NCBI GenBank assembly: GCA_013332095.1
Contig: JABENI010000009.1
Location: forward strand, 62,001-126,000
Reading direction: 5' to 3'
Source: Candidatus Bathyoplasma sp. NZ
GTDB lineage: Bacteria > Bacillota_I > Bacilli_A > MAG-NZ
DNA: 64,000 bases
In this document: one piece after another, positions 9,088 through 61,733 of the stretch
How the letters are laid out: every line of letters begins with the position of its first letter
How positions within the stretch are numbered: position 1 is the stretch's first letter
Position numbers and translations under genes: made by a program
Notes under the pieces: model-generated
Told to the model about the DNA's origin: nothing
What the model saw: the letters and a program-made list of their open reading frames with translations, nothing else
Databases searched by the model: none

Positions 9088-9612
9088 TACGGTCAGAAGT
9101 AAAGAAAATCAGCAAAAATCAAAGATAAAAAAACAAACTTAAATATTCTCGAAAAAAATAGGCTAAGAAGTTAGTGAAGTAATAATTTTGGCTAAAAATA
9201 ACAATAATAATGAAAAGTAGCTGGACTTTCTGATATTAGTTTAGTATTTCCTAGTTTTTTAGTGAATCAAGAGATAGCATTGTTCTAATAAAAACAGAAA
9301 TTATAAAAAAAGATAGTAGCAATTAAACAATCCTTTTTTGTTCGTTAAAAGGGTAAGTCAAGTGTTATTGTTCGCTAGGATTAACTAATATGTTATAATG
9401 AAAATATAAAAGCAGTTACCGAAATAACTGTTTTGTAACTGTCGTTTTAAAGAAATATGCTGTTGTTCTGAACAGCAAAAAATAAAAATTATCAAACTAA
9501 TGGATAGGAAACAACTTTTAAAGAAAAGGCAAGATTAATTATTATCTTATTTTCAAAATTTAAAGTTATAATTAAATTAATAAAAAGTTATTTGTCTCCT
9601 AGGAGGAAAAAG

Positions 9613-11883
9613 ATGAACTTTGCTAAAAGTATAAAACAAAACAAATTACAAAATAAAATATTTACAGAATTAAAATTTGGCTTAGAAAAAGAATGCATTA
9701 GAGTTTTTAATGATGGAAAAATGGCAACGACTGAGCACCCACCTGTTTTTGGTTCGAAAATAGAAAATAAATATTTTAAAACTGACTTTGCCGAATGTCA
9801 AATTGAACTAGTTACTCCTGTTTATAATTCGATTAAAGAATGTGCAAGATTTTTGTGCTTATTGCATAAAATATTAATGGAAGAGTTAGAAGATGAAATG
9901 GCTTGGCCACATAGTATGCCACCGATTTTACCTGCTAGCGATGAGATAAAAATATCCAATTATGATAGTTCTGAACTAGGAAGAGAAGCTAACGAATATC
10001 GAGAGTATTTAGTGAAAAAATATCCCAAAAAACTGCAGTTATTATCGGGAATTCATTTTAATTTTTCCTTTGATAACGAACTTATTGGACTACTGCATAA
10101 AGATTTGAATTCAACTGAAGATTATGTCAAGTTTAGTAAAGAATTATACTTGAAAATAATTAGAAACTTTAATAAATTTTCTTGGCTAATTATTTATTTT
10201 TTCGGTGCTACTCCAACTGGTCATGAAAGTTTTTTTAACGAAAAAATAAAACATGTTACTAGGGAAATTGATTTTTCCCAAACAATCTCTTTAAGAAACA
10301 GTATTTACGGTTATAAAAATTTAAAAAAATTTACCTTTGATTACACAGATACCGATAAATTTCAAAAAAGTATTTTAAAATATGTTAAGGCAAAAGAACT
10401 GTATTTTGAAGGAGAAAATTACAGTTCAATTAGATTAAAAAAAGGAGATAGTACTTATCTAGAAGTTAGAAATTTAGATTTAACCCCTTCTAGTACTTGC
10501 GGAATTAATTTTACCTGTTTAGAATTTGTTAAATTGTTGTTAATTTATTCATTAGTTACAGTCGATTATGAACTTACTTCTGAACTGCAAATAAACTATT
10601 TAGAAAATAGCGAAAAAGTTTCTATGTACGGTAAAAACACTAATATTTCATTAGTTAAAAATGAATTTGAAGAAAGCAGTTTAAAAGATTGGGGATTAGA
10701 AATTATTGATGATATGACTGAATTATTGTCGACTTTTGATATTCCTAAAAACGATTTAAACAACTTGAGGGAAAGAAGAGACGATTTACAAGATGTCAAT
10801 CGAATTGTGGCTAATAAAATTAATTGTAACGTTGAACAATTTATCAGTGCAAATTTGAGTAATGCGAAAAAATTTTGCCAAAGCAGAAATGACTTTAGTT
10901 TATTTGGTTATGAAGATTTAGAACTATCAACCCAAATTTTACTAAAAGAAGCGATTAAAAGAGGATTGAAGTTTGAAATACTGGATCGTAAAGAAAACTT
11001 TATCAAAATTTCTAACAATAAAAAAGTAGAATATATTAAACAGGCGACTAAAACATCGTTAGACTCATACATCAGTTATTTGATTATGGAAAATAAACAG
11101 GTGACAAAAGAAGTTTTAAAATTTGCTGATATTAATGTACCTAAAGGAAAGAAGTATTTATCGATTGAAGGTGGTTTAAAGGATTTTGAGATATACAAAA
11201 ACGAAAAAATTGTTGTTAAGCCAAAATCGACTAATTTTGGTATCGGAATATCAATTTTAGATAGTAGTCACAACTATCTAAACTACCGAACAGCACTAGA
11301 ATTAGCATTTTCAAAAGATGTAGAAATTTTAATCGAAAAGTTTATCGAAGGGCAAGAATATCGTTTTTTTGTGATTGGAGACAAAACAGAAGCGATTTTA
11401 AACCGCGTGCCGGCTAATGTTTTAGGTGATGGTATTCACGATATTGAACAGTTGGTAGAAATTAAAAATGATAGTATTTTAAGAGGTGAAAATTATCAAA
11501 AACCGTTACAAAAAATCAAACTAGATGATATTACTGAGCAATTTTTAAAAAAACAAAATAAAGATAAACAGAATGTACCTAAAATAGCTGAAGTTGTTTA
11601 TTTGCGCGAAAATTCAAATATTAGTACTGGTGGCGACAGTATTGATTATACCGACTTAATCAGCGAAGATTATAAAAATATTGCTGTAAAGGCAACACAA
11701 GCGGCTAAGGCAACAATATCGGGTGTTGATATGATTATTAAAGACATAACCAAGCCAGCTACAAGAGAAAATTATAGTATTATTGAAATTAACTTTAATC
11801 CGGCCATTCATATCCATTGTTTTCCTTACCGAGGGAAAAATAGACAATTAGCAAAAAAAATACTGGATAAACTAGGATTTTAA
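9613..11883 (+). CDS. gshF: Bifunctional glutamate-cysteine ligase / glutathione synthetase GshF
   Basis: 756 residues, the normal length of GshF. It makes glutathione from Glu, Cys and Gly in one protein. The N-terminal ~500 residues are a gamma-glutamylcysteine ligase (opening FGLEKECIRVF; SGIHFNFSF in the active-site region). The C-terminal ~250 residues are an ATP-grasp domain (FGIGISIL, EKFIEGQEYRFFVIG, and the metal-binding IIEINFNPAIHIH). The ATG at 9613 is preferred because AGGAGG ends six bases before it; an in-frame TTG at 9592 lacks such a site. About 600 bases of untranslated sequence precede it. It is the only thiol-synthesis gene in the window. Confidence 0.92.
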   Translation: MNFAKSIKQNKLQNKIFTELKFGLEKECIRVFNDGKMATTEHPPVFGSKIENKYFKTDFAECQIELVTPVYNSIKECARFLCLLHKILMEELEDEMAWPHSMPPILPASDEIKISNYDSSELGREANEYREYLVKKYPKKLQLLSGIHFNFSFDNELIGLLHKDLNSTEDYVKFSKELYLKIIRNFNKFSWLIIYFFGATPTGHESFFNEKIKHVTREIDFSQTISLRNSIYGYKNLKKFTFDYTDTDKFQKSILKYVKAKELYFEGENYSSIRLKKGDSTYLEVRNLDLTPSSTCGINFTCLEFVKLLLIYSLVTVDYELTSELQINYLENSEKVSMYGKNTNISLVKNEFEESSLKDWGLEIIDDMTELLSTFDIPKNDLNNLRERRDDLQDVNRIVANKINCNVEQFISANLSNAKKFCQSRNDFSLFGYEDLELSTQILLKEAIKRGLKFEILDRKENFIKISNNKKVEYIKQATKTSLDSYISYLIMENKQVTKEVLKFADINVPKGKKYLSIEGGLKDFEIYKNEKIVVKPKSTNFGIGISILDSSHNYLNYRTALELAFSKDVEILIEKFIEGQEYRFFVIGDKTEAILNRVPANVLGDGIHDIEQLVEIKNDSILRGENYQKPLQKIKLDDITEQFLKKQNKDKQNVPKIAEVVYLRENSNISTGGDSIDYTDLISEDYKNIAVKATQAAKATISGVDMIIKDITKPATRENYSIIEINFNPAIHIHCFPYRGKNRQLAKKILDKLGF

Positions 11884-21788: not shown

Positions 21789-21814
21789 AAAGAGTAATAC
21801 TCTTTTTTTTTTTT
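21786..21814 (+). terminator. Terminator after rpsU
   Basis: AAAGAGT and ACTCTTT pair around AAT, followed by a long T run. The T run ends only 17 bases before the yqfC start. Confidence 0.85.
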
Positions 21815-21830
21815 GCATATTATGTTATAC

Positions 21831-22073
21831 ATGAAGACAAAAAATGAGGTCATACCGACTGAATATTTAAATGGACTAAAAGTTATTTTTTATAAAAGTG
21901 AGGCAAATATTTTAAATTATGGTCAACTATTAAATATTGAAGATGAAATTATCGAAACGACCAATGTAAAGATTATCGGCGATAATTTAAAAATAAAAAA
22001 ATTGACAAAATTTGAAATTAAACTAATAGGTAATATAAAAAGGGTAGAAAGGGTTATCGATGAAACTAATTAA
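21831..22073 (+). CDS. yqfC: YqfC/YabP-like sporulation-associated protein
   Basis: About 80 residues. The pattern LKVIFYKSEANILNYGQLLN then KIIGDNLKIKKLTKFEIKLIGNIKRVE matches YqfC, a small beta-rich protein of the YabP family that is made under SigE in Bacillus sporulation. The start is uncertain: ATG at 21831 gives the best family length, while ATG 21822 and TTG 21813 are in frame. None has a Shine-Dalgarno, because the rpsU terminator sits directly upstream. Its end overlaps yqfD by 14 bases, so the two are coupled. Confidence 0.75.
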   Translation: MKTKNEVIPTEYLNGLKVIFYKSEANILNYGQLLNIEDEIIETTNVKIIGDNLKIKKLTKFEIKLIGNIKRVERVIDETN

Positions 22074-23118
22074 AATCAAAATAAACCTTTCTACTTTTAT
22101 AAAAAATAGCCGATTTATTGAATGTGAAAATATCGTTACTGGCAATGATTATGTAATCATTAATGTAAGTAAAAATGAGATTGACAAATTGCAGAGTTTA
22201 AATATTAATTTTCAATACATAGACAACTTTTCAATAAAGCAAAAACTAATAGTAAATGCGGGGTTTATTATTGGAATTATTTTATTTTTTGCTATCAACA
22301 TGGCGAATATCTACAGTATAGAAGAGATTGTATATAAGTCTGAAATAAATAAAAAAGAGATCTCGACTTTTTTAAAAGAGTATCAAATTTCTTTTTTAGG
22401 TAAAAACTATTTAAACGAATCTGTTATAAAAATTAATCAAGATTTGAGAAGTGAATTTAGTGAGTACGAATGGATTAACATTGTTAAAGAAGGCCGAAAA
22501 ATAGTTGTTGGAGTAAATAATAATCTCTTTAAAAACAAAGAAGAAACCACTAAATTAGGCGATTTAATCGCAACTAAAAGTGGAATAATTAAAATAATAG
22601 ATATCGAAAAAGGACTGCCACTAATAACATATAATCAGTACGTTTTAGCCGGAGAAAAGTTAGTAAGTGGAAATTTATACGATAAAAATTTTGTCAGTTC
22701 AAAAGGTTATGTAATAGCAGAAACATTAGAAAAGGAAAAATATATTTTAGAAAAAATAACTCAAAAAACTGAATTGACCGGTGAAGTTGAAATCAAAAAA
22801 GTAATATCATTTTTTGGGAAAAGCAAAACATACGAAAATTGTTCAGTTGTAGAAAAAAATATATTATCTTTGGGATTTGTGGCGTTTAAAGAGTTACAAA
22901 TTTATCAAAAAGATGTTATAATTAATCAGTATGATGAAAAAACTGCGAAACAATTTATAAAAAGTAAAATCGAACAACAGTTTTTTGCAAAAAAAAGTAA
23001 TGATTATGAAAAAATTATCAACATTCTCTTCTTGAATATTGAAGAGACCGAAGACTCTTTTATAATTCATACATTAACCAAAAAGTTTGAAAATATAGCT
23101 ATTTTTAAGGAGAGTTAA
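22060..23118 (+). CDS. yqfD: Sporulation protein YqfD
   Basis: 352 residues. A soluble N-terminal part of about 60 residues is followed by one membrane helix (about 66-87, LIVNAGFIIGIILFFAINM) and a large domain that in the family lies outside the cytoplasm. The VYKSEINKKEISTFLKEYQI region resembles a POTRA-like fold (inference). It is required for efficient sporulation in Bacillus; its biochemical role is unknown. It directly abuts phoH, as in Bacillus. Confidence 0.82.
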   Translation: MKLIKIKINLSTFIKNSRFIECENIVTGNDYVIINVSKNEIDKLQSLNINFQYIDNFSIKQKLIVNAGFIIGIILFFAINMANIYSIEEIVYKSEINKKEISTFLKEYQISFLGKNYLNESVIKINQDLRSEFSEYEWINIVKEGRKIVVGVNNNLFKNKEETTKLGDLIATKSGIIKIIDIEKGLPLITYNQYVLAGEKLVSGNLYDKNFVSSKGYVIAETLEKEKYILEKITQKTELTGEVEIKKVISFFGKSKTYENCSVVEKNILSLGFVAFKELQIYQKDVIINQYDEKTAKQFIKSKIEQQFFAKKSNDYEKIINILFLNIEETEDSFIIHTLTKKFENIAIFKES

Positions 23119-24090
23119 ATGATAAATAAATTAAATACAAAGTTTGCAAATTATAACGAAGCCCAAATTATCATTGGAAATAATGACGGCAACTTAAAAT
23201 TGCTTGAGTATTTGTTTGATGTAGAATTATCAACAAGAGGTGAAGAAATTTTAGTAAAGACTGAGGATAAACAAGTTGTCGCTAAAATTGAAGAATTATT
23301 TAAAGTTTTAAAATCTTTAGTCAGGCAAGGGGTAAAAATAACCGATAGAGATATTATTTATTTATCCAACATGTCGAAAGAAAACCAATTAGAAAAAGCA
23401 GTTGATTTGTACACCAAAAGAAGAAAAATTGTAACGACCAATAAGGGAGAGACAATTTATTCTAAATCAATTAAACAAACAGAATATTTAAACGCAATTA
23501 ATAAAAATGATTTAGTCTTCGGTGTTGGACCAGCTGGTACCGGAAAAACTTTTATTACTGTAATTGATGCAATTGCTAAATTGAAATCAGGTGACATAAA
23601 AAAAATCATTTTAACTAGACCAGCAGTAGAAGCAGGTGAAAGTTTAGGGTTTTTACCAGGTGATTTAAAAGAAAAAATAGATCCATATTTGCAGCCCTTG
23701 TACGATGCCTTAAACATTTGTTTAAGTGTTAAAGGTGTTGAAGAATCAATCGAAAAAGGAATAATAGAAATTGCCCCATTAGCATATATGCGTGGTAGAA
23801 CACTCGACAATGCTTATATTATTTTAGATGAGGCTCAAAACACTACAGAAAAACAAATGAAAATGTTTTTAACTAGATTAGGAACAAATTCAAAGATGGT
23901 AGTTACTGGTGATGTTTCCCAAATTGATTTGCCTAAAAAAGAGCGCTCAGGATTAAAATTAGCTATAAATTTATTGCATGATGTAAGAGGAATAAAAGTT
24001 GTTGAATTTTCAAGAGTTGATGTTGTTAGACATCCTCTGGTACAAGAAATCTTAAGAAAATACGAGAAATATGAAAATGTTAGAAATTAA
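23119..24090 (+). CDS. phoH: PhoH-like ATPase
   Basis: 323 residues. Cytosolic P-loop ATPase of the PhoH family, often linked with YbeY in RNA metabolism. An N-terminal KH-like part (about 1-110) precedes the ATPase domain. Walker A is GPAGTGKTF, Walker B IILDEAQNT, and the family motif LTRPAVEAGESLGFLPGD is intact. It starts immediately after the yqfD stop and overlaps ybeY by 20 bases. Confidence 0.93.
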   Translation: MINKLNTKFANYNEAQIIIGNNDGNLKLLEYLFDVELSTRGEEILVKTEDKQVVAKIEELFKVLKSLVRQGVKITDRDIIYLSNMSKENQLEKAVDLYTKRRKIVTTNKGETIYSKSIKQTEYLNAINKNDLVFGVGPAGTGKTFITVIDAIAKLKSGDIKKIILTRPAVEAGESLGFLPGDLKEKIDPYLQPLYDALNICLSVKGVEESIEKGIIEIAPLAYMRGRTLDNAYIILDEAQNTTEKQMKMFLTRLGTNSKMVVTGDVSQIDLPKKERSGLKLAINLLHDVRGIKVVEFSRVDVVRHPLVQEILRKYEKYENVRN

Positions 24091-24886
24091 ATATGTAAAT
24101 AAGACCAAACATAATATTGATAGATATAAAATAATAGGTGCCCAAAGTTTAAACCGAGCATTTTATTATATGCAATTATACGGTAACTTTAAAATAAGCA
24201 TTATTTTTGTTACTGATGAAGAAATTAAAGAATTAAATAAAGATTATCGAGATATTGATAGTGTAACTGATGTTCTAACTTTTAACGATGAAGATGAATA
24301 TTTAGGAGATGTTTTTATTGCTTTAGATCGCGTGAAAGAGCAGAGTGTTGAGATGAACCATACTTTCAAAGAAGAACTTTCATTTATTTATGTGCATGCA
24401 TTTTTACACGCTTTAGATTATGAACACGAGACAGATGAAGATTTAATAGAAATGTTAGCATTACAAAAAGATATTTTAACTTACGAAGCAGAATATTTAA
24501 CTGAAAAAGCTGAAATTGCTAGTAAAAACAGTTTCATTTTAGGACTACCAATGAGAGCTGGAGCAGCAGTAATGTTAAAAAATGGACTGATATTTACGGG
24601 AACTAAAATTGACATTCAGGAAAAAAAAATATATGCAGGTGCTGCCGAAAATGCAATTTTTAATGCGATTTCATACGGTTGTAAAAGAAATGATATTATC
24701 GAATTGGCTGTGATTACCACACATGTCGATGCTAAAGTTATTACTAGCGATTCTTTAAAAATACTGCAAGAGTTTTTAGGCGATGATATACCTGTGACGA
24801 TAAGTGATTTTACTGGTCAATGTATGAAACTTAAATTTAAACAGTTAGTCAGGTTGCATTCAGAAATTGGTGATAGAAATGTTTAA
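24071..24886 (+). CDS. ybeY: YbeY endoribonuclease fused to an inactive cytidine deaminase domain
   Basis: 271 residues. Residues 1-about 145 are YbeY, the metal-dependent RNase for 16S 3'-end maturation and ribosome quality control; the zinc motif HAFLHALDYEH is intact. Residues about 150-271 align without gaps to cytidine deaminase (Cdd), which lies near this place in Bacillus as a separate gene. In the deaminase part the catalytic CAE motif reads GAA, and the PCGAC motif reads ITSDS. All three zinc Cys and the catalytic Glu are therefore gone, while the hydrophobic framework is kept. One reading frame covers both halves. The start lies inside phoH and the end overlaps era. Confidence 0.85.
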   Translation: MKMLEIKYVNKTKHNIDRYKIIGAQSLNRAFYYMQLYGNFKISIIFVTDEEIKELNKDYRDIDSVTDVLTFNDEDEYLGDVFIALDRVKEQSVEMNHTFKEELSFIYVHAFLHALDYEHETDEDLIEMLALQKDILTYEAEYLTEKAEIASKNSFILGLPMRAGAAVMLKNGLIFTGTKIDIQEKKIYAGAAENAIFNAISYGCKRNDIIELAVITTHVDAKVITSDSLKILQEFLGDDIPVTISDFTGQCMKLKFKQLVRLHSEIGDRNV

Positions 24887-25769
24887 GTCAGGGTTCGTAA
24901 CAATTGTCGGAAGACCGAATGTCGGGAAAAGTACCTTTGTCAATGCCGTTTTAAAAGAAAAAATTGCGATAATGAGTGATAAAGTACAGACGACTCGTAA
25001 TAATATCCAAGGTATTTACACTGATCAAGAAGCCCAAATTGTCTTTATTGATACACCTGGTATTCATAAACCAAAACATCAATTAGGCAGTGTAATTAAT
25101 AGTATGGCAACGAGTACGATTGACGATGTTGACATAGTGTTATTTATGGTACCGTTTAATGAAAAAATCGGTGATGGAGATAGATTTATCTTAAATAGAT
25201 TTTCTGAGGAAACTAAAGTCTTTTTATTGATAAATAAAATTGATCTAGCAGTTAAGAAAAATTTGATTTTAGAAAAAATTGCTGAAGTTAGTAAAGTTTA
25301 TAATTTTGCGGAAATAATTCCAATTAGTGCAATGAAGTTAGAAAACATCGATTACTTAATTGAAATTATTAAAACGCACCTCGATGAAGGTGTAATGTAC
25401 TATCCGGCTGAATATAAAACTAATCATTCAGAGGAATTTTTGATACGAGAGATTATAAGAGAAAAAGTTTTACATTTAACGAAAGAAGAAGTCCCTCATT
25501 CTGTTGCTGTTGTTCTAGACCAATATGAGTGTGCAGAAGATGGAATTATTGAGATTAGAGCTTCAATCATTGTTGAGAGAAAGTCCCAAAAAGGGATAAT
25601 TATTGGAAATCAAGGTTCGATGATAAAAACAATAGGTTCCAGAGCAAGAAAAGAAATAAAGAAAAAACTAAAAAATCCAGTTTATTTGGAGTTGTGGGTA
25701 AAAGTAGAGAACGACTGGCGCAACAACAATCGAAATTTAGATGAATTCGGCTATAAAATAGACTATTAA
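24879..25769 (+). CDS. era: GTPase Era
   Basis: 296 residues. Essential GTPase that binds the 3' end of 16S rRNA during 30S assembly. G1 is GRPNVGKST, G3 DTPG, G4 NKID, and the KH domain holds GIIIGNQGSMIKTIGSRAR. The ATG at 24879 follows GGTGA and overlaps the previous gene by eight bases; an in-frame TTG at 24867 is less likely. Its partner YbeY lies directly upstream, in agreement with their shared role. Confidence 0.96.
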   Translation: MFKSGFVTIVGRPNVGKSTFVNAVLKEKIAIMSDKVQTTRNNIQGIYTDQEAQIVFIDTPGIHKPKHQLGSVINSMATSTIDDVDIVLFMVPFNEKIGDGDRFILNRFSEETKVFLLINKIDLAVKKNLILEKIAEVSKVYNFAEIIPISAMKLENIDYLIEIIKTHLDEGVMYYPAEYKTNHSEEFLIREIIREKVLHLTKEEVPHSVAVVLDQYECAEDGIIEIRASIIVERKSQKGIIIGNQGSMIKTIGSRARKEIKKKLKNPVYLELWVKVENDWRNNNRNLDEFGYKIDY

Positions 25770-25826: not shown

Positions 25827-25955
25827 ATGAGTAAATATTGGAAAAAATTTATGGAAACAGGAAGCATTAAAGATTACATGAAGTATAAGTCGGCTAAAAA
25901 TAGCGGAGGAGTTAATGAAAAACGCGAAGGAAGCTATAGTATTAAAAAGCATTAA
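25827..25955 (+). CDS. yqzL: YqzL-like small protein
   Basis: 42 residues. The pattern YWKKFMETGSIKDYMKYK matches YqzL (W..F..TG....Y...K), a tiny protein found between era and recO in Bacillus. Function unknown. A strong TTAGGAGAT lies seven bases upstream. The last 41 bases overlap the start of recO in another frame, so the tail KREGSYSIKKH is read from the same DNA as the RecO N-terminus. Confidence 0.75.
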   Translation: MSKYWKKFMETGSIKDYMKYKSAKNSGGVNEKREGSYSIKKH

Positions 25956-26604
25956 TTTTAAAGAAAGTAGTAAAATTGTTTATCTTTTAACTGCTGAAGG
26001 ATTAAAAAGTGTATTGGTGAGAGGTGCTAAAAAAGTAAAAAGTAAAACGAGAACTTTAGCCCAATCGATATCTTTGATAAAGTATGAAGCCTCAAATAGA
26101 AAACTTCCTACTTTAATTGATGGAGAGTTATTAAACGGTTATTTTAAAATAAAAAGCGACTTTGAAAAAAGCGCTTTTGTTTATAATATTTTGGAAATTG
26201 TCTATAAACTGAATAGCGAAAGTGAGGATTTGTACCGATATCTTAAAACAATTTTGGACTCGATAGAAAATGGTGGCAACCCAAAATTAATTACTTTAAT
26301 CTTTCAAATGAAATATCTGTACTTATTAGGAATTAATCCAGAATTGAAAAAATGTGTTGAATGCGGTGAGCCGTTAGTCGGATTCGACATTGCTAAAGGT
26401 GGAGTAGTTTGTAAAAAACACTCAACGGCAAAGACAATTTATGATTTGGAAATTGTCCGAGGGCTAGCGGAACTATATTACAAAAATGATTTTTCTATTG
26501 AAGTGAAAAATTTAGACCAACTAAGCGAGATAGTTAATGATTATTATTTATTTCATTTAGATTTTAAAGTTAAAAAATTGAAGTTGTTAAATTACTTTAA
26601 TTAA
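25915..26604 (+). CDS. recO: DNA repair protein RecO
   Basis: 229 residues. It helps RecR load RecA at single-stranded gaps. An N-terminal OB fold contains AIVLKSINFKESSKIVYLLT and ARGAKK-type basic residues (VRGAKKVKSKTR). The helical part has a zinc motif: KKCVECGEP, then VVCKKH. Its start lies inside yqzL and has its own GGAGGAG. A terminator follows. Confidence 0.9.
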   Translation: MKNAKEAIVLKSINFKESSKIVYLLTAEGLKSVLVRGAKKVKSKTRTLAQSISLIKYEASNRKLPTLIDGELLNGYFKIKSDFEKSAFVYNILEIVYKLNSESEDLYRYLKTILDSIENGGNPKLITLIFQMKYLYLLGINPELKKCVECGEPLVGFDIAKGGVVCKKHSTAKTIYDLEIVRGLAELYYKNDFSIEVKNLDQLSEIVNDYYLFHLDFKVKKLKLLNYFN

Positions 26605-49655: not shown

Positions 49656-50426
49656 TTAAATATCAAGTTTTTCAACCGGTTGACTAGTTTTATCCTCTTT
49701 TAGCTGTTGATAAAATACTGCAAAAGCAATTTGATATCTTGCTTGAATATACGCGAATAAAATAGTTGATGTTACAAACATAACCATTAGTATCAACAAC
49801 CCAGGAAGGAAGTTCTCAGATGGAGCGTGTAACCGCATTGTTAATAAAGTAAAAAGCATAATTAATATTACAAAAATTGCAAGAACCCACCCCAGAAAAT
49901 ATCTTAATTGCAAAAGAAATATTTTCATTTTATTATTTTTCATCAATTGATAACTTTTTTTCAAAGTTTCTATGGCGTTAAAAGATTGATAATCATCATC
50001 GATCAAAATATATTTTACGGAAGTGAATGCATAATATAAAATTATTCCTGGAATTATGAATAGGATTAATCCTATCCAAATAATTAAATAACTCAATAAC
50101 AAGGTTCCCACTCTTTTAAATATTTTTGTGTTAGTACAAACTTGAAATGCTATTGATAAATTTTTTCCTTTTTCTCTTACTATGCTGTAACATAAATTAC
50201 TAATCCCAACAGTAACTACAGCATTACTGATTAAACTTATAATTATTTGCGGAAGAATCATAAAACTCATCGCAATCATAAGATTAACATACATAGCATT
50301 AGGAACAAAAAAATTAAAAATTATATATGTTATCAATGCCCACAATATCGTGAAACCGAAAACAGCGCTTTTAGAAAATTCTTTTTCCATTTTTACTAAA
50401 TCTTTAATTTTAATAATTTTAGTCAC
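49656..50426 (-). CDS. DUF975-like membrane protein, paralogue 1
   Basis: 256 residues, about five to six helices. The family pattern is: a charged N-terminus (KDLVKMEKEF), a helix pair, SIVREKGKNLSIAFQVCTN, LILFIIPGIILYYAF, DDDYQSFNAIETLKKS with MKNNKMKIFLLQL, and a C-terminal helix ending YQIAFAVFYQQLKED. The tail TSQPVEKLDI is closest to that of copy 11. DUF975 proteins are integral membrane proteins of unknown function. The only canonical start is a GTG that is part of AGAGGTG; ATT at 50417 sits six bases after that site. Confidence 0.85.
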   Translation of the reverse strand: MTKIIKIKDLVKMEKEFSKSAVFGFTILWALITYIIFNFFVPNAMYVNLMIAMSFMILPQIIISLISNAVVTVGISNLCYSIVREKGKNLSIAFQVCTNTKIFKRVGTLLLSYLIIWIGLILFIIPGIILYYAFTSVKYILIDDDYQSFNAIETLKKSYQLMKNNKMKIFLLQLRYFLGWVLAIFVILIMLFTLLTMRLHAPSENFLPGLLILMVMFVTSTILFAYIQARYQIAFAVFYQQLKEDKTSQPVEKLDI

Positions 50427-50480
50427 CTCTTTATAATTTACTTGATTAATATTTTTTTATTTATAAATTCTTTAAAATTA

Positions 50481-50709
50481 TCAGAAGCAATCTTCAATGA
50501 TTTTTTTGATGTTTTGAATCTCATCTATACAATATGAGATTTAGATAAACATTTTCTAACTTGAACACCTGATTATCTTCTTCTGGTGGCTGATTAATCA
50601 AACACCTAAATAGCAATTAAATTTTGTTTTTAGAGCCTTTAATTAACACTGTTTAGTAATAAATCATCTTTCCCGATTACGGTACTTCATCAATTAATTT
50701 TTCAGTCAT
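50481..50709 (-). pseudogene. Vestigial small ORF upstream of paralogue 1
   Basis: On the minus strand an ATG opens MTEKLIDEVP, then stops. Later open pieces read NQPPEEDNQVFKLENVY and DEIQNIKKIIEDCF before a TGA at 50481. These pieces align with spacers of units 2-5. It suggests a lost protein of about 75-100 residues that was encoded just before the DUF975 gene. I do not recognise it. Confidence 0.5.
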
Positions 50710-50839
50710 TGAATGATGTTGTTAATTTAATAACAAATCATTATAACTTAATTAAAAAATAATTAAAACTAGTTGAAGAAAATTAAATAATTTATATTTT
50801 ATTTTAAAGCAAATTTTTGTTACTAAATATATTAAAATA

Positions 50840-51088
50840 TTTTAGGAGAAATATAATATATAAAGCAAAACGATTATTATAATCCTGTTATAAATATAAT
50901 AAAGATTGTAACCAACGATTGAATATCGATATTGAAAGACCAATTCATGTTAGAGATGATAATATTACAGATTAGTAATAAAAAAAAGCAAATTAAAATT
51001 TTTTTTGGAAAAATAATAGATGATTAATTATTTTGATTGATAGTACTTCTTACTCTTGGATTAGTATTAGCAATATTTGCAAAATGAA
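50840..51088 (+). pseudogene. ispH 5' / small-gene 3' fusion relic, copy 2
   Basis: It runs from TTTTAGGAGAAATA through an ispH-like stretch without the ATG, across the join near AGTAATAAAAAAAA. It then ends with GGATTAGTATTAGCAATATT and TGCAAAATGA, the close of the small gene. The hairpin AAGAACAA/TTGTTCTT follows before the stop of paralogue 2. Confidence 0.8.
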
Positions 51089-51152
51089 TATAAGTTTAAA
51101 AATAAAGAACAACCAAATTGTTGTTCTTTTATTATATTTTGTACTATTTAAA

Positions 51153-51962
51153 TTAAATTCCTTCAATTTGTAGACTAGTTTTATCTTCTAGTAGGTCAGT
51201 TTTTTCTTCTTTTATCTGCTCATAGAATAATGCAAGAGCGATATAATATTTTGAACTAATATAAGCCATTAAAACAGAAAATCCTATTAATACAGGTATT
51301 AGTAGTAATACTAATAACATTAATCCGAATGCATATGATGTTGTTGTATTAACGGTCATAGGATCAACAGCGTATGGAGTACCAACGAATGTCATAGGAA
51401 TATTGACGAAAGTCATTAATGAAAAAATAATGATTAATGAGAAAATAAAAAAACCAACATACCATACTAGGAAATATCTTAAGAACAAAAGAAACATTTT
51501 CATTTTATTTTTTTTCATCAGTTCACAACTTTTTTTCAAAGTTTCAATTACGCTAAGAGATTGATAATTTTCATCAATCAAAATAAATGGTACTAAACCA
51601 AACGCATAAGATAAAATTATCCCTGGAACTATGAAGAGTATTAATCCTATCAAAATAAATAAATAACCTAATAATAAGGTACCCGCTCTTTTGAATATTT
51701 TTGTGTTAGTACAAACTTGAAAGGCTATTGAGAAATCTTGTCCATTTCCCTTTACTATGCTATAAGATAATTGAGCAATTCCAATAGAAATTACAGCACT
51801 AATAAAATATGCAATTATGAAATTGATTAACGGTAAAAACATAACAAAAATTGAAATTACAGATGACATCAATGCCCACAGCATTATAGAGCCGAAAACA
51901 GCTCCTTTAGGAAATTCTTTTTCCTTTTTTACTAAATCTTTTATTATAATAATTTTAATCAC
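51153..51962 (-). CDS. DUF975-like membrane protein, paralogue 2
   Basis: 269 residues. Core motifs as in paralogue 1 (IVKGNGQDFSIAF, LFIVPGIILSYAFGLVPFIL, SVIETLKKSCELMKKNK). Between the last two helices it has an extra loop of about 20 residues (VGTPYAVDPMTVNTTT). The tail contains LLEDKTSLQIEGI, a longer form shared with copy 4. The GTG at 51962 lies inside GAGGTG; ATT at 51953 is at the normal distance from that site. Confidence 0.85.
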   Translation of the reverse strand: MIKIIIIKDLVKKEKEFPKGAVFGSIMLWALMSSVISIFVMFLPLINFIIAYFISAVISIGIAQLSYSIVKGNGQDFSIAFQVCTNTKIFKRAGTLLLGYLFILIGLILFIVPGIILSYAFGLVPFILIDENYQSLSVIETLKKSCELMKKNKMKMFLLFLRYFLVWYVGFFIFSLIIIFSLMTFVNIPMTFVGTPYAVDPMTVNTTTSYAFGLMLLVLLLIPVLIGFSVLMAYISSKYYIALALFYEQIKEEKTDLLEDKTSLQIEGI

Positions 51963-52017
51963 CTCTTTATAATTTACCCAATTAATATTTTTTTATTTAT
52001 AAATTCTTTAAAATTAT

Positions 52018-52275
52018 GGGCACAATGTCCGATAATTTTTTTGATGTTTTGAATGCTATCCAGCTGTCTTGGGGGTTATTAAATATTTTCTAACTTGAAT
52101 AATTCATATCTTTTTCTAGTGGCTGTTTAGAACAAATATCCAAACAACATCTCAAAATTTATCTTTAATTCCCTTAATTAAAGTTATTTTATCAATAAAT
52201 CATCTCTTGAAGAATAATCAACTCTTCTTGTTACATCTTTTCGGTCCTACTTCATTAATTAATTTTTCAGTATTT
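52018..52275 (-). pseudogene. Vestigial small ORF upstream of paralogue 2
   Basis: On the minus strand TEKLINEVVPK and later IQNIKKIIG match the relic before paralogue 1. The ATG has become ATA, and stops and shifts are present. Confidence 0.45.
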
Positions 52276-52339
52276 TTAAACATTAGCATTGTAAACTATC
52301 TTGTTGAAATAATTAAAATTAATTGGAGAAATTTAAATG

Positions 52340-52556
52340 TGTTAAATTTTAGGAAAAATCAAATAAAAAATAAACGTTTATTATAAACGTAATAATGATT
52401 GTAACTAACGATTAAATACCGATGTTTCAAAATAAATTCAGGTTAGGTATATTAATACTACAAAGCAACAATAAGAAAAAATAATAGATTATTAATTATT
52501 TTGATTGATACTACTTCTTACTCGTGGATTGTTGCTAGCAATATTTGCAAAAAGAA
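52340..52556 (+). pseudogene. ispH 5' / small-gene 3' fusion relic, copy 3
   Basis: A degraded ispH start (AGGAAAAATCAAATA...) runs to the join ACAACAATAAGAAAAAA. A short deletion follows, then the small-gene close GTTGCTAGCAATATTTGC. The terminator arms are partly disturbed in this copy. Confidence 0.7.
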
Positions 52557-52618
52557 TATAGTTTATAAATAAAGAGCAACCAAATTGTTCTTCTTATGAT
52601 TTATTTTTACTATTTAAA

Positions 52619-53398
52619 TTAAAATCTTTCAATTGGTAGACTAGTTTTTTCTTCTTTTACCTGCTCATAAAATAAGGCAAGAGCAAGATAATATTTTGAA
52701 CTAATATAAGCCATTAAAATAGAAAATACTATTAGTAGAGGTATTAGTAGTAATGCTGATAATCCTAATGCAAATAATGACGTAAGATTTAAGCCTAGAG
52801 AATCAATGGATGGAGGACCCATGAATATTATCGGAGGACCAGTGAATATTATTATTAAAAGAATATTAACTGATAAGTAAATTGACAAACCACCGTACCA
52901 TATTAGGAAATATCTTAATTGTAAAAGAAACATTTTCATTTTATTATTTTTCATCAATTCCCAACTTTTTTTCAAGGTTTCAATTGCGCTAAGAGATTGA
53001 TAATCTTCATCAATCAACATTAATGGTACTATACCAAGCCCATAAGATAAAATTATCCCGGGAACTACGAACATTATTAATCCTATCCAAACAAATAAAT
53101 AACCTAATAATAATGTACCAACTCTTTTTAATGTTTTTGCGTTAGTCCAAACTTGAAATGCTATTGAGAAATCTTGTCCTTGTCCTTTTACTATGCTATA
53201 AGATAATTGAGCAATTCCAATAGAAATTACAGCACTAATTAAATAGGCAACTAGGAAGTTGATGTACGATAAAAAGGTAAAAAAAATTAAAATTACAAAT
53301 GATAACAATGCCCACAGCATTATAGAGCCGAAAACATCTCCTTTAGGGAATTCTTTTTCTTTTTTTACTAAATTTTTAATTGTAATAATTTTAATCAC
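52619..53398 (-). CDS. DUF975-like membrane protein, paralogue 3
   Basis: 259 residues. It differs from the neighbours in a Gly/Pro-rich loop (GPPIIFMGPPSIDS) before the penultimate helix and in the tail KTSLPIERF. The internal motif SAIETLKKSWELMKNNKMKM is intact. GTG start inside the ribosome site; ATT at 53389 is the better-spaced codon. Confidence 0.85.
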   Translation of the reverse strand: MIKIITIKNLVKKEKEFPKGDVFGSIMLWALLSFVILIFFTFLSYINFLVAYLISAVISIGIAQLSYSIVKGQGQDFSIAFQVWTNAKTLKRVGTLLLGYLFVWIGLIMFVVPGIILSYGLGIVPLMLIDEDYQSLSAIETLKKSWELMKNNKMKMFLLQLRYFLIWYGGLSIYLSVNILLIIIFTGPPIIFMGPPSIDSLGLNLTSLFALGLSALLLIPLLIVFSILMAYISSKYYLALALFYEQVKEEKTSLPIERF

Positions 53399-53454
53399 CT
53401 CTTTATAATTTACCTGATTAATAATTTTTATTTATAAATTCTTTAAAATTATGA

Positions 53455-53710
53455 AATGCAATGTCCGATAATTTTTTTGATGTTTTGAATGCTAATCAGA
53501 CTACTTTGAGTTTGATAAATATTTTTTAACTTGAACAACTCACATCTTCTTCTAGTGGCTGTTTAAAACAAATGCATAAACAACTCAAATTTTATCTTTA
53601 ACTTCCTTAATTAAAGTTATTTTATCAAAAAAATCATCTCTTGAAGAATGCTCAACGCTTCTTGTTACCTTTTTTCGATACCACTTCATCAATTAACTTT
53701 CATTATTTTT
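53455..53710 (-). pseudogene. Vestigial small ORF upstream of paralogue 3
   Basis: Minus-strand pieces LIDEVVSKKGNKKR and AFKTSKKIIGHCIS match the other upstream relics. The first codons are lost. Confidence 0.45.
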
Positions 53711-53819
53711 AAACATTAGCATTGAAAACTATATTGTTGAAGGGTATTGAGAATTTAAAAGCAAATTATTATAACATATTTTTGAAATAATTAAAATTAA
53801 TTGATGAAATTTAAATGTA

Positions 53820-54058
53820 TTAAATTTTAGGAAAAATCAAATATAAAGTAACAATTATTATAATGCTATAAAGATTGTAACTAACGATTAAATACCGATG
53901 TTTCAAAATAAATTTATCTTAGATCCCTTAATGTTACAAAGCAGCAGTAAGAAAAAAGCAGATTAAAACTTTTTTTGGAAAAATAATAAATTATTAGTTA
54001 TTTTTGATTGATACTACTTCTTACCATGGTCTCAGTATTAGCGATATTTGCAAAAGGA
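53820..54058 (+). pseudogene. ispH 5' / small-gene 3' fusion relic, copy 4
   Basis: AGGAAAAATCAAATATAAAG is the ispH start region without ATG. The join is AGCAGTAAGAAAAAAG and the close is GTATTAGCGATATTTGC. A clean AAGAACAA/TTGTTCTT hairpin follows near 54075-54100. Confidence 0.78.
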
Positions 54059-54122
54059 ATATAAGTTTAAAAATAAAGAACAACCAAATTGTTGTTCTTT
54101 TGTTTTATTTTTACTATTTAAA

Positions 54123-54884
54123 TTAAATTTCTTCAATTTGTAGACTATTTTTATCTTCTAGTAAACTAGTTTTTTGTTCTTTTACCTGCTCGTAAAATAA
54201 TGCAAGAGCGATATAATATTTTGAACTAATATAAGATATTAAAATAGAAAATCCTATTAGTAGAGGTATTATAAATAATGATAATAATAATAATTCGAAC
54301 ATTACTGTACTATTAATGCTATCAGCTATAGCTATTACTGAAAAAATAACGATTAATGAGAAAATAGCCAAACCAGCATACCATACTAGGAAATATCTTA
54401 ATTGTAAAAGAAACATTTTCACTTTATTATTTTTCATCAATTCCCAACTTTTTTTCAAAGTTTCAATTACGCTAAGAGATTCATAATCTTCATCAACCAA
54501 CATAAATGGTACTATACCAAGCCCATAAGATAAAATTATCCCGGGAACTATCAATAGTAGGAATCCTATCCAAATAATTAAAATACTTAATGCTGCTATA
54601 CTCACTTTTTTAATTATTTCTTTGTGAGTCAAAATCTCAAATGCTATTGAGAGATCTTCTCCTTTTCCCTTTATTATACTACAAGATAATTGAGCAATCC
54701 CAATAGAAATTATCCCACCAACTAAGAGTGAAACTACTGATGATAGCAATATACCGCCAAACATAAAAACGGATGAAATAACAACTGTTATAAATCCACT
54801 TAAGAATACAATTACGAAAACAGTTAATTTAGGAAATTCTTTTTCCCTTTTTACTAAATCTTTGATTATAATAATTTTAATCAC
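54123..54884 (-). CDS. DUF975-like membrane protein, paralogue 4
   Basis: 253 residues. This is the most diverged copy in its first half: FEILTHKEIIKKVSIAALSI replaces the usual FQVCTNTKIFKR segment, and the first helix is different (TVFVIVFLSGFITVVISSVF). The second half (SVIETLKKSWELMKNNKVKM, YISSKYYIALALFYEQVKE) is standard, which could mean partial exchange between copies. GTG start; ATT at 54875 is at the ideal spacing. Confidence 0.85.
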   Translation of the reverse strand: MIKIIIIKDLVKREKEFPKLTVFVIVFLSGFITVVISSVFMFGGILLSSVVSLLVGGIISIGIAQLSCSIIKGKGEDLSIAFEILTHKEIIKKVSIAALSILIIWIGFLLLIVPGIILSYGLGIVPFMLVDEDYESLSVIETLKKSWELMKNNKVKMFLLQLRYFLVWYAGLAIFSLIVIFSVIAIADSINSTVMFELLLLSLFIIPLLIGFSILISYISSKYYIALALFYEQVKEQKTSLLEDKNSLQIEEI

Positions 54885-54943
54885 CTCTTTATAATTTACT
54901 CAAGTAATATTTTTTTTATTTATAAATCCTTTAAAATTATGAA

Positions 54944-55190
54944 ATACAATATCCGATAATTTTTTTGATGTTTTGATTGCTGTCCATGCAATTTTGAGTT
55001 TTATTAAATATCTTCTAACTTGGAACAACTCATATTTTCTTCTAGTGGTTGTTTAGAACAAATATTTAAACAGTTCAAATTTTGTTTTTAGCTACCATAA
55101 TTAATGTTATTTTATCAATAAATCATCTCTTGAAGAATGATCAATTTTTCTTGTTACATTTTTTTCGATAATACTTCATCAATTAACTAA
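54944..55190 (-). pseudogene. Vestigial small ORF upstream of paralogue 4
   Basis: This minus-strand relic matches the ones at 50481 and 53455, with the start (LIDEVLSKK) and the end (IKTSKKIIG) still recognisable. Several stops are present. Confidence 0.4.
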
Positions 55191-55359
55191 TATAAACTAT
55201 ATTATTGAGTGCTGTTGCTAAATTAACAACAAATTATTATAACATATTTTTGAAATAATTAAAACTGGTTGAAAAAACTTAAATAATTTATATTTTATTT
55301 TAAAGCAATTTTTTAAAAAAATTAACAAAAAAAATCTTGATAATTTTTGCTATTTAAAT

Positions 55360-55620
55360 ATGTTAAAATATTTTAGGAAAAATCAAATATATAAAGCCAA
55401 CCGAGTATTATAATCCTATTATAAATGTAATAAAGATTGTAGCTAACAATTAAAAATAGATGTTTCAAAATCAATTGATGTTAGATACATTAATGTTACA
55501 AAGCAGCAATAAAAAAAAACCAGATTAAACCTTTTTTTAGAAAAATAAAAAATTATTAATTATTTTTGATCGATACTACTTCTTACTCTTAGATTGTTGC
55601 TAGCAATATTTGTAAAAAAA
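55360..55620 (+). pseudogene. ispH 5' / small-gene 3' fusion relic, copy 5
   Basis: The promoter-side TTGATAATTTTTGCTATTTA and TTTTAGGAAAA are kept. The ispH part lacks its ATG, the join is AGCAGCAATAAAAAAAAA, and the close is TTGTTGCTAGCAATATTTG. A clean terminator hairpin follows near 55638. Confidence 0.78.
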
Positions 55621-55682
55621 AAAGTTTAAAAATAAAGAACAACCAAATTGTTGTTCTTTTGTTATATTTTGTAATATTTAAA

Positions 55683-56447
55683 TTAAATTTCTTCAATTTG
55701 TAGACTAGTTTTTTGTTCTTTTACCTGCTCGTAAAATAATGCAAGAGCAATATAATATTTTGAACGAATAAAAGCCATTAAAATAGAAAGTCCTATTAAT
55801 ACAGGTATTAGTGCTAATAATAATAATCCTAATGTGGCCAACGTTGTAGGATCAACGGTCGTAGGGTCGGTGGTTGTCATTGGAGCACCAATGAATGTCT
55901 TTAATGAAAAAATAATGACAAATGATAAAATAAAAAAACCAACCCACCATACTAGGAAATATCTTAAGGACAAAAGAAACATTTTTATTTTATTTTTTTT
56001 CATCAGTTCACAACTTTTTTTCAAAGTTTCAATTGTACTGAGAGATTGATAATCTTCATCAATCAAAATAAATGATACTAAACCAAATGCATAAGATAAA
56101 ATTATCCCTGGAACTATGAATAGTATAAATCCTATAAAAACAAATAAATAACCTAATAATAATGTACCCACTCTTTTAAATATTTTTGTGTTAGTACAAA
56201 CTTGAAATGCTATTGAAAAATCTTGTCCTTTTCCTTTTACTATGCTATAAGATAATTGAGCAAGCCCAATAGAAAGCACAGTACCAATCAAACACGAAGT
56301 TAGGATATTGAAAAACGGTAAAAACACAACAAAAATTGAAATTCCAAATGTTATCAATCTCCACAGCATTATAGAGCCGAAAACAGCTCCTTTAGGAAAT
56401 TCTTTTTCCTTTTTTACTAAATCTTTTATTATAATAATTTTAATCAC
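55683..56447 (-). CDS. DUF975-like membrane protein, paralogue 5
   Basis: 254 residues, close to paralogue 2 in the N-terminal half. It has a Thr-rich loop (TTTDPTTVDPTTLA) at the place where paralogue 2 has its extra loop. The tail KTSLQIEEI lacks the LLEDK insert. GTG start inside AGAGGTG; ATT at 56438 is the alternative. Confidence 0.85.
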   Translation of the reverse strand: MIKIIIIKDLVKKEKEFPKGAVFGSIMLWRLITFGISIFVVFLPFFNILTSCLIGTVLSIGLAQLSYSIVKGKGQDFSIAFQVCTNTKIFKRVGTLLLGYLFVFIGFILFIVPGIILSYAFGLVSFILIDEDYQSLSTIETLKKSCELMKKNKIKMFLLSLRYFLVWWVGFFILSFVIIFSLKTFIGAPMTTTDPTTVDPTTLATLGLLLLALIPVLIGLSILMAFIRSKYYIALALFYEQVKEQKTSLQIEEI

Positions 56448-56499
56448 CTCTTTATAATTTATCCAAATAATATTTTTTATTTATAAATTCTTTAAAATT

Positions 56500-56750
56500 A
56501 TGGACACAATGTCCGATAATTTTTTTGATGTTTTGAATGCTACCCAATTATCTTGGGGTTTAAATATTTTCTAACTTGGACGACTCACATCTTCTTCTAG
56601 CGGCTATTTAGAACAAATATCTAAGCAACAGCAAATTTTGTTTTTAATTCCCTTAATTAAAGTTATTTTACCAACAAATCACCTTTTTAAGAATAATCAA
56701 CTCTTCTTATTAGATCTTTTCGGTACTACTTCATTAATTAATTTTTCAGT
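56500..56750 (-). pseudogene. Vestigial small ORF upstream of paralogue 5
   Basis: Last of the five upstream relics: TEKLINEVV and IQNIKKIIG are still readable on the minus strand. The units to the right lack this part, which explains their shorter spacing. Confidence 0.45.
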
Positions 56751-56839
56751 ATTTTTAAACAATGTAATTAATTATATTGTTGAATACCATTGGCACTTTA
56801 AAAACGATTTATTATAACATATTTTCGAAATAATTAAAA

Positions 56840-57032
56840 ATTATTTTTAAGAAAAATCAAATAAAAGTAAACAATTATTATACTCATCTTATAAACGTAA
56901 TAAAGACTTAACTAATGATTAAATGTCGATGTTTCAAAATAAATTCATATTTAATACATTAATGTTACTTTGTAGCATTAAGAAAAAATTAGATTAAAAC
57001 TTTTTACTGTTAGCAATATTTGCAAAAAGAAT
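56840..57032 (+). pseudogene. ispH 5' / small-gene 3' fusion relic, copy 6
   Basis: Shortened copy: the ispH start region is kept from about AGAAAAATCAAATAAAAG, the join is GTAGCATTAAGAAAAAAT, and part of the small-gene tail is deleted before CTGTTAGCAATATTTGC. The hairpin near 57045-57070 is intact. Confidence 0.72.
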
Positions 57033-57094
57033 ATAAGTTTAAAAATAAAGAACAACCAAATTGTTGTTCTTCTGTGTAATTTTTACTATTTAAA

Positions 57095-57847
57095 TTAAAC
57101 TTCTTCAATCGCTTGAATAGCTTTATCTTCTTTTACCTGCTTATAAAATAAGGCAAGAGCAATATAATATTTTGAACTAATATAAGTAATTAAAAGGGCA
57201 AATACTATTGCTATGGGCATTATTAGTAATAATGATAATCCTAATGCGAATATTGCTGTGATATCCATGCCCCTAGCGCCAAAGGGTGTAATACTAGTGA
57301 ATGTCATTATGAAAAAAATAATGATTAATAAGAAAATAAAACGACCAACATAACATACTAGGAAATATCTTAATTGTAAAAGAAACATTTTCATTTTATT
57401 TTTTTTCATCAATTCGCAACTTTTTTTCAAAGTTTCAATTACGCTAAGAGACTCATAGTCTTCATCAATTAACATAAATGGTACTATACCAAGCCCATAA
57501 GTTAAAATTACCCCTGGAATTATGAAGATTATTAATCCTATAAAAACAAATAAATAACCTAATAATAATGTACCAAGTTCTTTATATCCGCTACTCCAAA
57601 TCTTAAGCGCTATTGAGAAATCTTCTCCTCTTCCCTTTACTATGCTATAAGATAATTGAGCAAGCCCAATAGACATTATAACACTAGTTAAATATGTAAT
57701 TATGAAGTTAACGGGCGCTACAAGCATAAAAAAAAATGAAATAACAATTGTTATAAATGTCCACAACAATATAGAGCCGAAAACAGCACCTTTAGGAAAT
57801 TCTTTTTCTTTTTTTACTAAATTTTTAATTATAATAATTTTAATCAC
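57095..57847 (-). CDS. DUF975-like membrane protein, paralogue 6
   Basis: 250 residues. The middle differs: ALKIWSSGYKELGTLLLGY replaces the FQVCTNTKIFKRVGT segment, with a short deletion. A loop SITPFGARGMDIT precedes the penultimate helix. The tail is KAIQAIEEV, the form seen in copies to its right, so it sits at the border between the two unit types. GTG start; ATT at 57838 is well spaced. Confidence 0.85.
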   Translation of the reverse strand: MIKIIIIKNLVKKEKEFPKGAVFGSILLWTFITIVISFFFMLVAPVNFIITYLTSVIMSIGLAQLSYSIVKGRGEDFSIALKIWSSGYKELGTLLLGYLFVFIGLIIFIIPGVILTYGLGIVPFMLIDEDYESLSVIETLKKSCELMKKNKMKMFLLQLRYFLVCYVGRFIFLLIIIFFIMTFTSITPFGARGMDITAIFALGLSLLLIMPIAIVFALLITYISSKYYIALALFYKQVKEDKAIQAIEEV

Positions 57848-57887
57848 CTCTTCATTGTTTTTTAATTAATTGATACACATTATAACA

Positions 57888-58098
57888 TATTTTAAAAGCC
57901 AAACGATTATTATCATCCTGTTATAAATGTATAAATATTGTAACTAACAATTAAAAATCAATGTTTCAAAATCAATTCATGTTTAGATACGTTAATGCTA
58001 CAAATCAGCGATAAGAAAAAATAACAGATTATTAATTATTTTTGATTGATACTACTTCTTACTCTTGTATTGATACAACAAAATTAGCAAAAGAAATA
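57888..58098 (+). pseudogene. ispH 5' / small-gene 3' fusion relic, copy 7
   Basis: It begins within the ispH start (AAAAGCCAAACGATTATTAT) and lacks the promoter part. It continues GTTTAGATACGTTAATGCTA, crosses the join ATCAGCGATAAGAAAAAA and ends in an altered small-gene tail. The hairpin near 58110-58140 follows. Confidence 0.75.
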
Positions 58099-58159
58099 TA
58101 AGTTTAAAGACAAAGAACAAAGAAATTGTTGTTCTTCTGTTTTGTTTTTACTATTTAAA

Positions 58160-58921
58160 TTAAACTTCTTCAATCGGTTGAACCGTTTTATCTTCTTTTA
58201 TTTGTTTATAGAATATTGCAAGAGCAATACAATATTTTGAGTAATACTGAGATAAAATCATAAAAAGTACTCCCCCCCATGGAACTATTACAGCTCCTGC
58301 TGTTGCGGTTCCCAAACCTATAGAATATATTAAGAATAAAATACCAGCTATAATTGAAATGCCAATTATTAAAAGAATAAATGGTAGAAAATATTTTAAT
58401 TGCAAATGAAACAATTTCATTTTATTATTTTTCATCAATTCCCAACTTTTTTTCAAAGTTTCTGTTATACTGAGTGATTGATAATCTTCATCAATTAAAA
58501 CAAATGGTACTAAAGCAAATGCATAAGATAAAATTATCCCTGGAATTATCAATAGTATTAATCCTATACATACAATTATATAACTTAATATCATTGTAAA
58601 CATTCTTTTAAATATTTTTGTGTTAGTAAAAACTTGAAACGCTATTGAGAATTTTTCTCCTTTTTCCCTTACTATGCTGTATGATAATTGAGAAATTCCA
58701 ATGGAAAATACAGAACTAATTAAGATCACAATTAGTTGGTTTATAATGCCAAACTGTACTATATTATTACTAGGATGGCCATAAGATACATCAGAAAAAT
58801 CAAAACCAATAACTATAATTATGAGCGTTATGACTCCCCATAACTGCATAAATAAATTGCCAGAGTTATTTTTTGGAAGAAATTCTTTTTCCTTTTTTAC
58901 TATATTTTTAATTGTAATCAT
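58160..58921 (-). CDS. DUF975-like membrane protein, paralogue 7 (ATG start)
   Basis: 253 residues. One of two copies with a true ATG, seven bases after AGAGGT (ATTAAAATG). It begins MITIKNIVKKEKEFLPK. The region VIGFDFSDVSYGHPSNN before the second helix is related to paralogues 8 and 9. The C-terminal helix reads YYSKYCIALAIFYKQIKEDK and the tail KTVQPIEEV. Because the ATG aligns with ATT in the other copies, it marks the likely ancestral start. Confidence 0.88.
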   Translation of the reverse strand: MITIKNIVKKEKEFLPKNNSGNLFMQLWGVITLIIIVIGFDFSDVSYGHPSNNIVQFGIINQLIVILISSVFSIGISQLSYSIVREKGEKFSIAFQVFTNTKIFKRMFTMILSYIIVCIGLILLIIPGIILSYAFALVPFVLIDEDYQSLSITETLKKSWELMKNNKMKLFHLQLKYFLPFILLIIGISIIAGILFLIYSIGLGTATAGAVIVPWGGVLFMILSQYYSKYCIALAIFYKQIKEDKTVQPIEEV

Positions 58922-59077
58922 TTTAATTACCTCTTTATAGTTTATCCAATAAATTGATTGGATTTATAAACATTTTTAACTGATACTATTTCAATTAGTA
59001 TAATATTATAACATATTTTAGAGGAATTAATAAAATGTACATACAGGGAAATTTTGCTATTAGAGGATGATAAAACA

Positions 59078-59340
59078 TTTTAGGAGGATAATAATGGAAA
59101 TCAAATATATAAAGCCAAATGGTTATTATAATGCTGTTATAAACATAATAAAGATTGCAACTAACAATTAAAAATCGATGTTTCAAAATCAATTCATGTT
59201 TAGATACGTTAATGCTACAAATCAGCAATAAAAAAACAGATTAAAATTTTTTTTGGAAAAATAACAGATTATTAATTATTTTTGATTGGCACTACTTCTT
59301 ACTCTTGCATTGATACAACCAAATTAGCAAAAGAAATATA
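59078..59340 (+). pseudogene. ispH 5' / small-gene 3' fusion relic, copy 8 (best preserved)
   Basis: The ribosome site TAGGAGG and the ATG (59094) are intact, and 25 codons remain open: MEIKYIKPNGYYNAVINIIK and then IATNN-stop. In ispH the same stretch is MEIKYINPNGYCSGVVKAVR; the cluster Cys is now Tyr. After the stop, similarity continues to the join (AGCAATAAAAAAACAG) and into the small-gene tail. Confidence 0.85.
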
Positions 59341-59399
59341 AGTTTAAAAATAAAGAACAACCAAATTGTTGTTCTTCTGTGTTATTTTTATTATTTAAA

Positions 59400-60200: not shown

Positions 60201-60240
60201 CTCTTCATTGTTTTTCAATTAAATGATATTACATTATAAC

Positions 60241-60478: not shown

Positions 60479-60538
60479 AAGTTTAAAAATAAAGAACAAC
60501 AAAATTGTTGTTCTTCTGCGTTGTTTTTACTATTTAAA

Positions 60539-61342: not shown

Positions 61343-61424
61343 CTCTTCATATTTTTCAATTAATTGCTATTGTTGCACAAATAATCTATTATTACTATAA
61401 CATATTTTAAAATAATTGGAAAAA

Positions 61425-61674: not shown

Positions 61675-61733
61675 AGTTTAAAAATAAAGAACAACAAAAT
61701 TGTTGTTCTTCTGCGTTGTTTTTACTATTTAAA

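Follow-up and report, generated by a model that had tools for sequence, protein, structure and literature searches.

The ribosome-maturation RNase YbeY of Candidatus Bathyoplasma sp. NZ carries, in one polypeptide, a C-terminal half that on alignment is a descendant of a cytidine deaminase (Cdd) and by no functional criterion a cytidine deaminase itself. The YbeY active site is intact, the deaminase site is dead, and yet the dead half keeps the coding signature of a gene in a genome that has lost the salvage genes its ancestor served; the fusion itself recurs elsewhere. We consider it somewhat probable that the Cdd half has been retained as a non-catalytic module of YbeY after the loss of salvage.

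Results

A single open reading frame joins YbeY to a Cdd fold

The window, which is the whole 64,000-nucleotide stretch of DNA that was analyzed, contains at 24071-24886 on the plus strand one 271-codon ORF that encodes YbeY residues 1 to 137 and a T-type Cdd fold from about residue 142 to 271, joined without a linker. An earlier note, made from the sequence alone, had described this ORF as such a fusion with an open frame; both halves are indeed matched by family profiles, and the ORF is uninterrupted. It lies in the order phoH, ybeY-cdd fusion, era, recO, with the following features:

23119-24090, plus strand: phoH (ybeZ), directly upstream and overlapping the start of the fusion (PF02562, E 2.7e-91)
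24071-24481, plus strand: YbeY domain, residues 1-137, with HAFLHALDYEH (H109/H113/H119) and R60 intact
24434-24523, plus strand: junction, residues 122-151, predicted to be a single continuous helix (AlphaFold2 model)
24494-24883, plus strand: Cdd-fold domain, residues 142-271 (TIGR01354 E 4.5e-5, alignments and structure model)
24638-24646, plus strand: residues 190-192, GAA where intact Cdds have the CAE motif (alignment)
24740-24754, plus strand: residues 224-228, ITSDS in place of the PCGAC motif (alignment)
24879-25769, plus strand: era, probably starting with the ATG at 24879, within the last 8 bases of the fusion ORF
25915-26604, plus strand: putative recO, named from synteny and sequence reading

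The start codons nearest to the beginning of the Cdd domain are codons 128 and 161. As none lies near the junction, an internal start that yields a separate Cdd domain was ruled out, and the domain can be produced only as part of YbeY. An Rfam search of the window gave no match.

The N-terminal half belongs, by profile and alignment, to the YbeY family. It matched PF02130 over residues 24-137 (E 1.6e-32; 112.5 bits against a cut-off of 25) and TIGR00043 (E 5e-31; 107.3 bits against 45), as well as the Staphylococcus aureus YbeY structure 7y7o. RNase activity of YbeY needs the Hx3Hx5H zinc triad and R59 in Escherichia coli numbering (PMC5101352), and all columns invariant among relatives are kept in the fusion, including the zinc histidines H109, H113, and H119 and R60, indicating an intact active site. 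The position of E. coli K61 is occupied by Ile, which is also the majority residue among the aligned relatives.

The deaminase half has lost its active site

The Cdd half was recognized by TIGR01354 over residues 145-260 with E 4.5e-5, although its 23.7 bits are far under the curated cut-off of 113.65, and Cdd chains in the PDB match it by sequence (7zob, E 2.2e-5). Alignment with the intact Cdds of relatives showed that 13 of the 14 active-site columns are changed. The positions of the zinc cysteines are now G190, T225, and S228, and that of the catalytic glutamate is A192, so the reading of CAE as GAA and of PCGAC as ITSDS, with all three zinc ligands and the catalytic residue replaced, was correct. 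Also replaced are N42 (K), E44 (D), A46 (Q), Y48 (K), R56 (E), the arginine in PCxxCRQ, and the C-terminal F (S); of these, N42 and E44 (of the NxEN motif), A46, Y48, and the C-terminal F have roles in ribose binding or subunit sharing in T-type cytidine deaminases (T-CDAs) (PMC9897663).

Two further details of the earlier description did not hold. The alignment to Bacillus Cdd is not free of gaps, as query residues 160-260 pair with 23-121, a net difference of two residues, and the statement that the remainder of the domain is conserved goes too far, given the losses at N42, E44, A46, Y48, R56, and the C-terminal F and an identity to the Cdd consensus of 27%, where functional Cdds average 61% with a minimum of 39%. 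Only 1 of 14 active-site columns is kept against 10 of 25 other conserved columns, a difference that is suggestive only (Fisher p 0.06). The proposal of a dead deaminase domain on an RNA-processing enzyme stands, but not that of a nucleoside-binding domain: since the substrate-binding residues are lost as well, the Cdd half is unlikely to bind a nucleoside, judging from these replacements. The RNA-binding role that had been put forward for it was not supported either, as the domain is not basic (pI 7.9, net charge +1), and its charge does not favor RNA binding.

Structure prediction of the fusion, one of the checks proposed at the outset, modeled the Cdd fold confidently. The AlphaFold2 model of the Cdd half reached a pLDDT of 92.6, although living Cdds made up the alignment behind it, so that it does not prove folding independently, and it superimposed on the best Cdd crystal structures with target-normalized TM-scores of 0.79-0.88 and an rmsd of 1.3-1.8. 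In the model, a helix spanning residues 122-151 merges the last helix of YbeY with the first of Cdd. From this prediction we infer that the Cdd half probably folds as modeled.

The dead half keeps a gene-like coding signature

GC content by codon position in the Cdd half is 0.43/0.34/0.21, as in real genes, and its coding score of 0.261, next to 0.248 for the YbeY half, ranks in the 81st percentile among 93 gene windows. When neutral drift was simulated from four intact cdd genes, scores fell to about 0.05-0.11 at comparable divergence with several stops; no run reached the observed coding score, and the probability of finding no stop was at most 0.01 at 30-40% residual identity. Drift in which stops were avoided, a model of a frame that has to stay open for era, reached the observed coding score in 0 of 2,700 runs. 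Retention of the hydrophobic pattern (75% in the Cdd half against 74-76% in stop-avoiding drift at equal identity) was dropped as a proof of folding, as this drift gives the same result.

The branch leading to the Cdd half is saturated, at 10 changes per site where the median is 0.35, or about 28 times the median, while that of the YbeY half is about twice the median length. Such extreme change without a stop, together with gene-like codons, suggests that constraint has changed in kind and not disappeared. The codon statistics are an argument for continuing constraint on the Cdd half, one that is drawn from a single genome and accompanied by a hydrophobic pattern no better than in drift.

Pyrimidine nucleoside salvage is dismantled

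No other Cdd was found in the genome, which settles the suggested check for a separate active cdd: the three PF00383 matches read as TadA-, dCMP-deaminase-, and guanine-deaminase-like proteins. Uridine kinase (Udk) or any PRK-domain kinase, and a catalytic pyrimidine-nucleoside phosphorylase (PyNP), were likewise absent from the genome; a PRK-domain kinase is present in all three family relatives, and a complete PyNP in zrk6. The joint absence of another Cdd, uridine kinase, and catalytic PyNP from this 97% complete draft indicates that cytidine and uridine salvage has been dismantled.

A remnant of PyNP was observed about 41 kb upstream of the window (G000:C22:20932-21201; locus L130, about 1489-1830). 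Only the C-terminal domain, the last quarter of the enzyme, is present; it is encoded upstream of a dacF-like gene by a free-standing ORF of about 113 codons, with a strong ribosome-binding site of its own and a gene-like coding score of 0.234. PyNP is thus another salvage enzyme of which only a non-catalytic part is left. Elsewhere, the guanine-deaminase-like gene (G000:C26:50119-50418, L003) adjoins ABC permeases that read as nucleoside-type, and purine nucleoside uptake thus seems to have been kept while pyrimidine nucleoside salvage was lost.

The fusion recurs, whereas the dead deaminase is seen once

In relatives, ybeY and an active-site-complete cdd are adjacent separate genes in the order phoH-ybeY-cdd-era. 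In 17 loci that we read, the two genes share a reading frame and are separated by a single stop codon, so that loss of this stop alone would fuse them. Within the same family, ybeY and cdd of zrk6 (CP074575.1, "Mycoplasmatota bacterium") are in different frames, with an overlap of 8 bases, two genomes (G001 and G002) encode complete Cdds separate from ybeY, and another (G003) has a Cdd fragment with the zinc site kept. The junction is readable in two same-family genomes, both with separate active genes.

Relatives that share the fusion but keep the zinc ligands had been named beforehand as a sign of local sequence error or decay. Fusions with an intact deaminase do occur, in G321 (L048) and G364 (L060), which belong together to another family of the class, and in the Clostridiales MAG RUG11012 (L090 6001-6741). 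These lineages are unrelated and their fusions independent of the dead one, showing that the fusion has arisen repeatedly and is not in itself enough to inactivate the deaminase. The intact fusions are predicted to be bifunctional and are apparently undescribed; in the open-licence papers, we found none that describes a YbeY-Cdd fusion.

A second dead fusion was not found in 60 relatives, 395 genomes of the class, or a phylum draw of 392, and scans of genome contigs revealed none in a sister genome. Death of the deaminase after fusion is seen only in Candidatus Bathyoplasma sp. NZ, and thus in one draft genome of 44 contigs that is 97% complete. A plasmid collection contained YbeY matches, among them one pair of separate ybeY and cdd genes that barely reached 80%, and no YbeY-Cdd fusion was seen there.

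Discussion

The locus has the order and neighbors of the phoH-ybeY-[dgkA]-cdd-era-recO cluster of Bacilli, and both halves of the fusion align to the YbeY and Cdd of that cluster. The Bacilli cluster has two genes and an active-site-complete Cdd, whereas here there is one polypeptide with a dead deaminase. The intact fusions of G321, G364, and RUG11012 share the domain order and the near-linkerless join, but they have the zinc ligands and catalytic glutamate that the dead fusion lacks. YbeY-Era fusions are known in Clostridia and Selenomonadales (PMC10582724) and similarly join YbeY at its C terminus to the product of an era-cluster neighbor, although that partner is a functional ribosome-assembly GTPase and not a dead metabolic enzyme. 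Plastid YbeY likewise bears an extra C-terminal domain of enzyme ancestry, in that case a HAD-like domain not reported as degenerate (PMC9181182), instead of a dead Cdd fold.

Dead deaminase domains are familiar from the C-terminal half of E. coli-type dimeric CDA, from ADAT3, and from the N-terminal domain of APOBEC3G, where a fold that no longer catalyzes still serves in structure, partner binding, or RNA binding. Each of those domains has an active deaminase as its fusion or pairing partner, while the partner here is an RNase and no active Cdd is left in the genome.

We propose that the lineage lost cytidine and uridine salvage, so that cytidine deaminase activity would no longer have been needed, and that cdd joined ybeY through loss of the intervening stop, although the fusion may have come first. 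The deaminase half would then have lost zinc, catalysis, and nucleoside binding while remaining a translated, gene-like domain, with the fold staying as a rigidly attached docking or oligomerization surface of YbeY. YbeY works alongside Era and uS11 in maturation of the 30S subunit (PMC10582724, PMC5101352), and because of this role such a surface is the simplest use of an inert fold; the module could act during 30S maturation beside Era, PhoH, and uS11. The Cdd half would then be held by selection on the protein, and its role would be structural, in ribosome assembly. Counting against a module are the lack of interaction between Era and Cdd in S. aureus (PMC6738653), a surface that is not basic, and the hydrophobic retention, which is no better than in stop-avoiding drift.

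A particular form of this explanation, which we regard as fairly unlikely, is that the dead domain still tetramerizes and makes YbeY multimeric. T-CDAs are homotetramers whose active sites are shared between subunits (PMC9897663), and the natural fusions of YbeY to an intact Cdd show that the fused arrangement is tolerated. However, the residues that reach into neighboring subunits (A46, Y48, and the C-terminal F) are gone, as is the NxEN motif, a proposed support of the tetramer (PMC9897663). It is doubtful that the Cdd of the era cluster always had a second, non-catalytic job in 30S maturation and that only this job was kept here, through fusion to YbeY; if true, it would explain the long-puzzling conserved neighborhood of cdd with ybeY and era.

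The main rival to a retained module, and one with an appreciable if smaller chance of being right, is that the Cdd half is useless ballast kept by its position: ribosomes must traverse it to reach the start of era, so stops are disfavored while the amino acids drift. The overlap of the era ATG at 24879 with the last codons of the fusion fits this reading, and so do the saturated branch, the lone PyNP C-terminal domain as another salvage remnant in the same genome, and a retention of conserved columns and hydrophobic pattern that matches drift at equal identity. However, stop-avoiding drift never met the observed coding score, GC by codon position is that of real genes, and coupling to era would be cheaper to restore by deletion than by 130 drifting codons. 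The very fast change concentrated in the Cdd half with its coding signature kept, along with charged or polar residues that have newly appeared in the old pocket (N42K, R56E, A46Q, and Y48K), could also point to an old active site rebuilt for another ligand or catalysis, such as one that senses a nucleotide or small molecule and thereby regulates YbeY. We consider this improbable, as one sequence defines no conserved new motif and no relative in the 395 class genomes or the phylum draw of 392 shares the dead fusion. Contamination or an error of assembly or sequencing might be suspected in a 44-contig draft and is extremely improbable here: the flanking phoH and era are correct, and 13 of the 14 active-site columns are changed in an ORF that is still open and gene-like, a pattern that sequencing error does not explain.

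Both the chemistry of the deaminase and its pathway are gone, yet a deaminase-derived domain persists inside YbeY. Should selection be what holds the domain, the chemistry of Cdd and its neighborhood are separated here, and a structural role can be put directly to the test; should the domain be a relic, it illustrates the extent of drift that is possible in a fused domain whose frame stays open.

Other features of the window

Directly upstream of phoH, at 21813-23118, are YabP/YqfC-like and YqfD genes, which are sporulation-associated, in this relative of the wall-less Mycoplasmatota. At 9592-11883, a glutamate-cysteine ligase is joined to an ATP-grasp domain in a GshAB-like protein, an arrangement that suggests bifunctional glutathione synthesis. 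On the minus strand at 49656-62501, between a DEAD-box helicase and LytB/IspH, lies a regularly spaced tandem array of ten paralogous proteins of about 250-272 amino acids, 45-55% identical to the first, of which the three members tested match DUF975.
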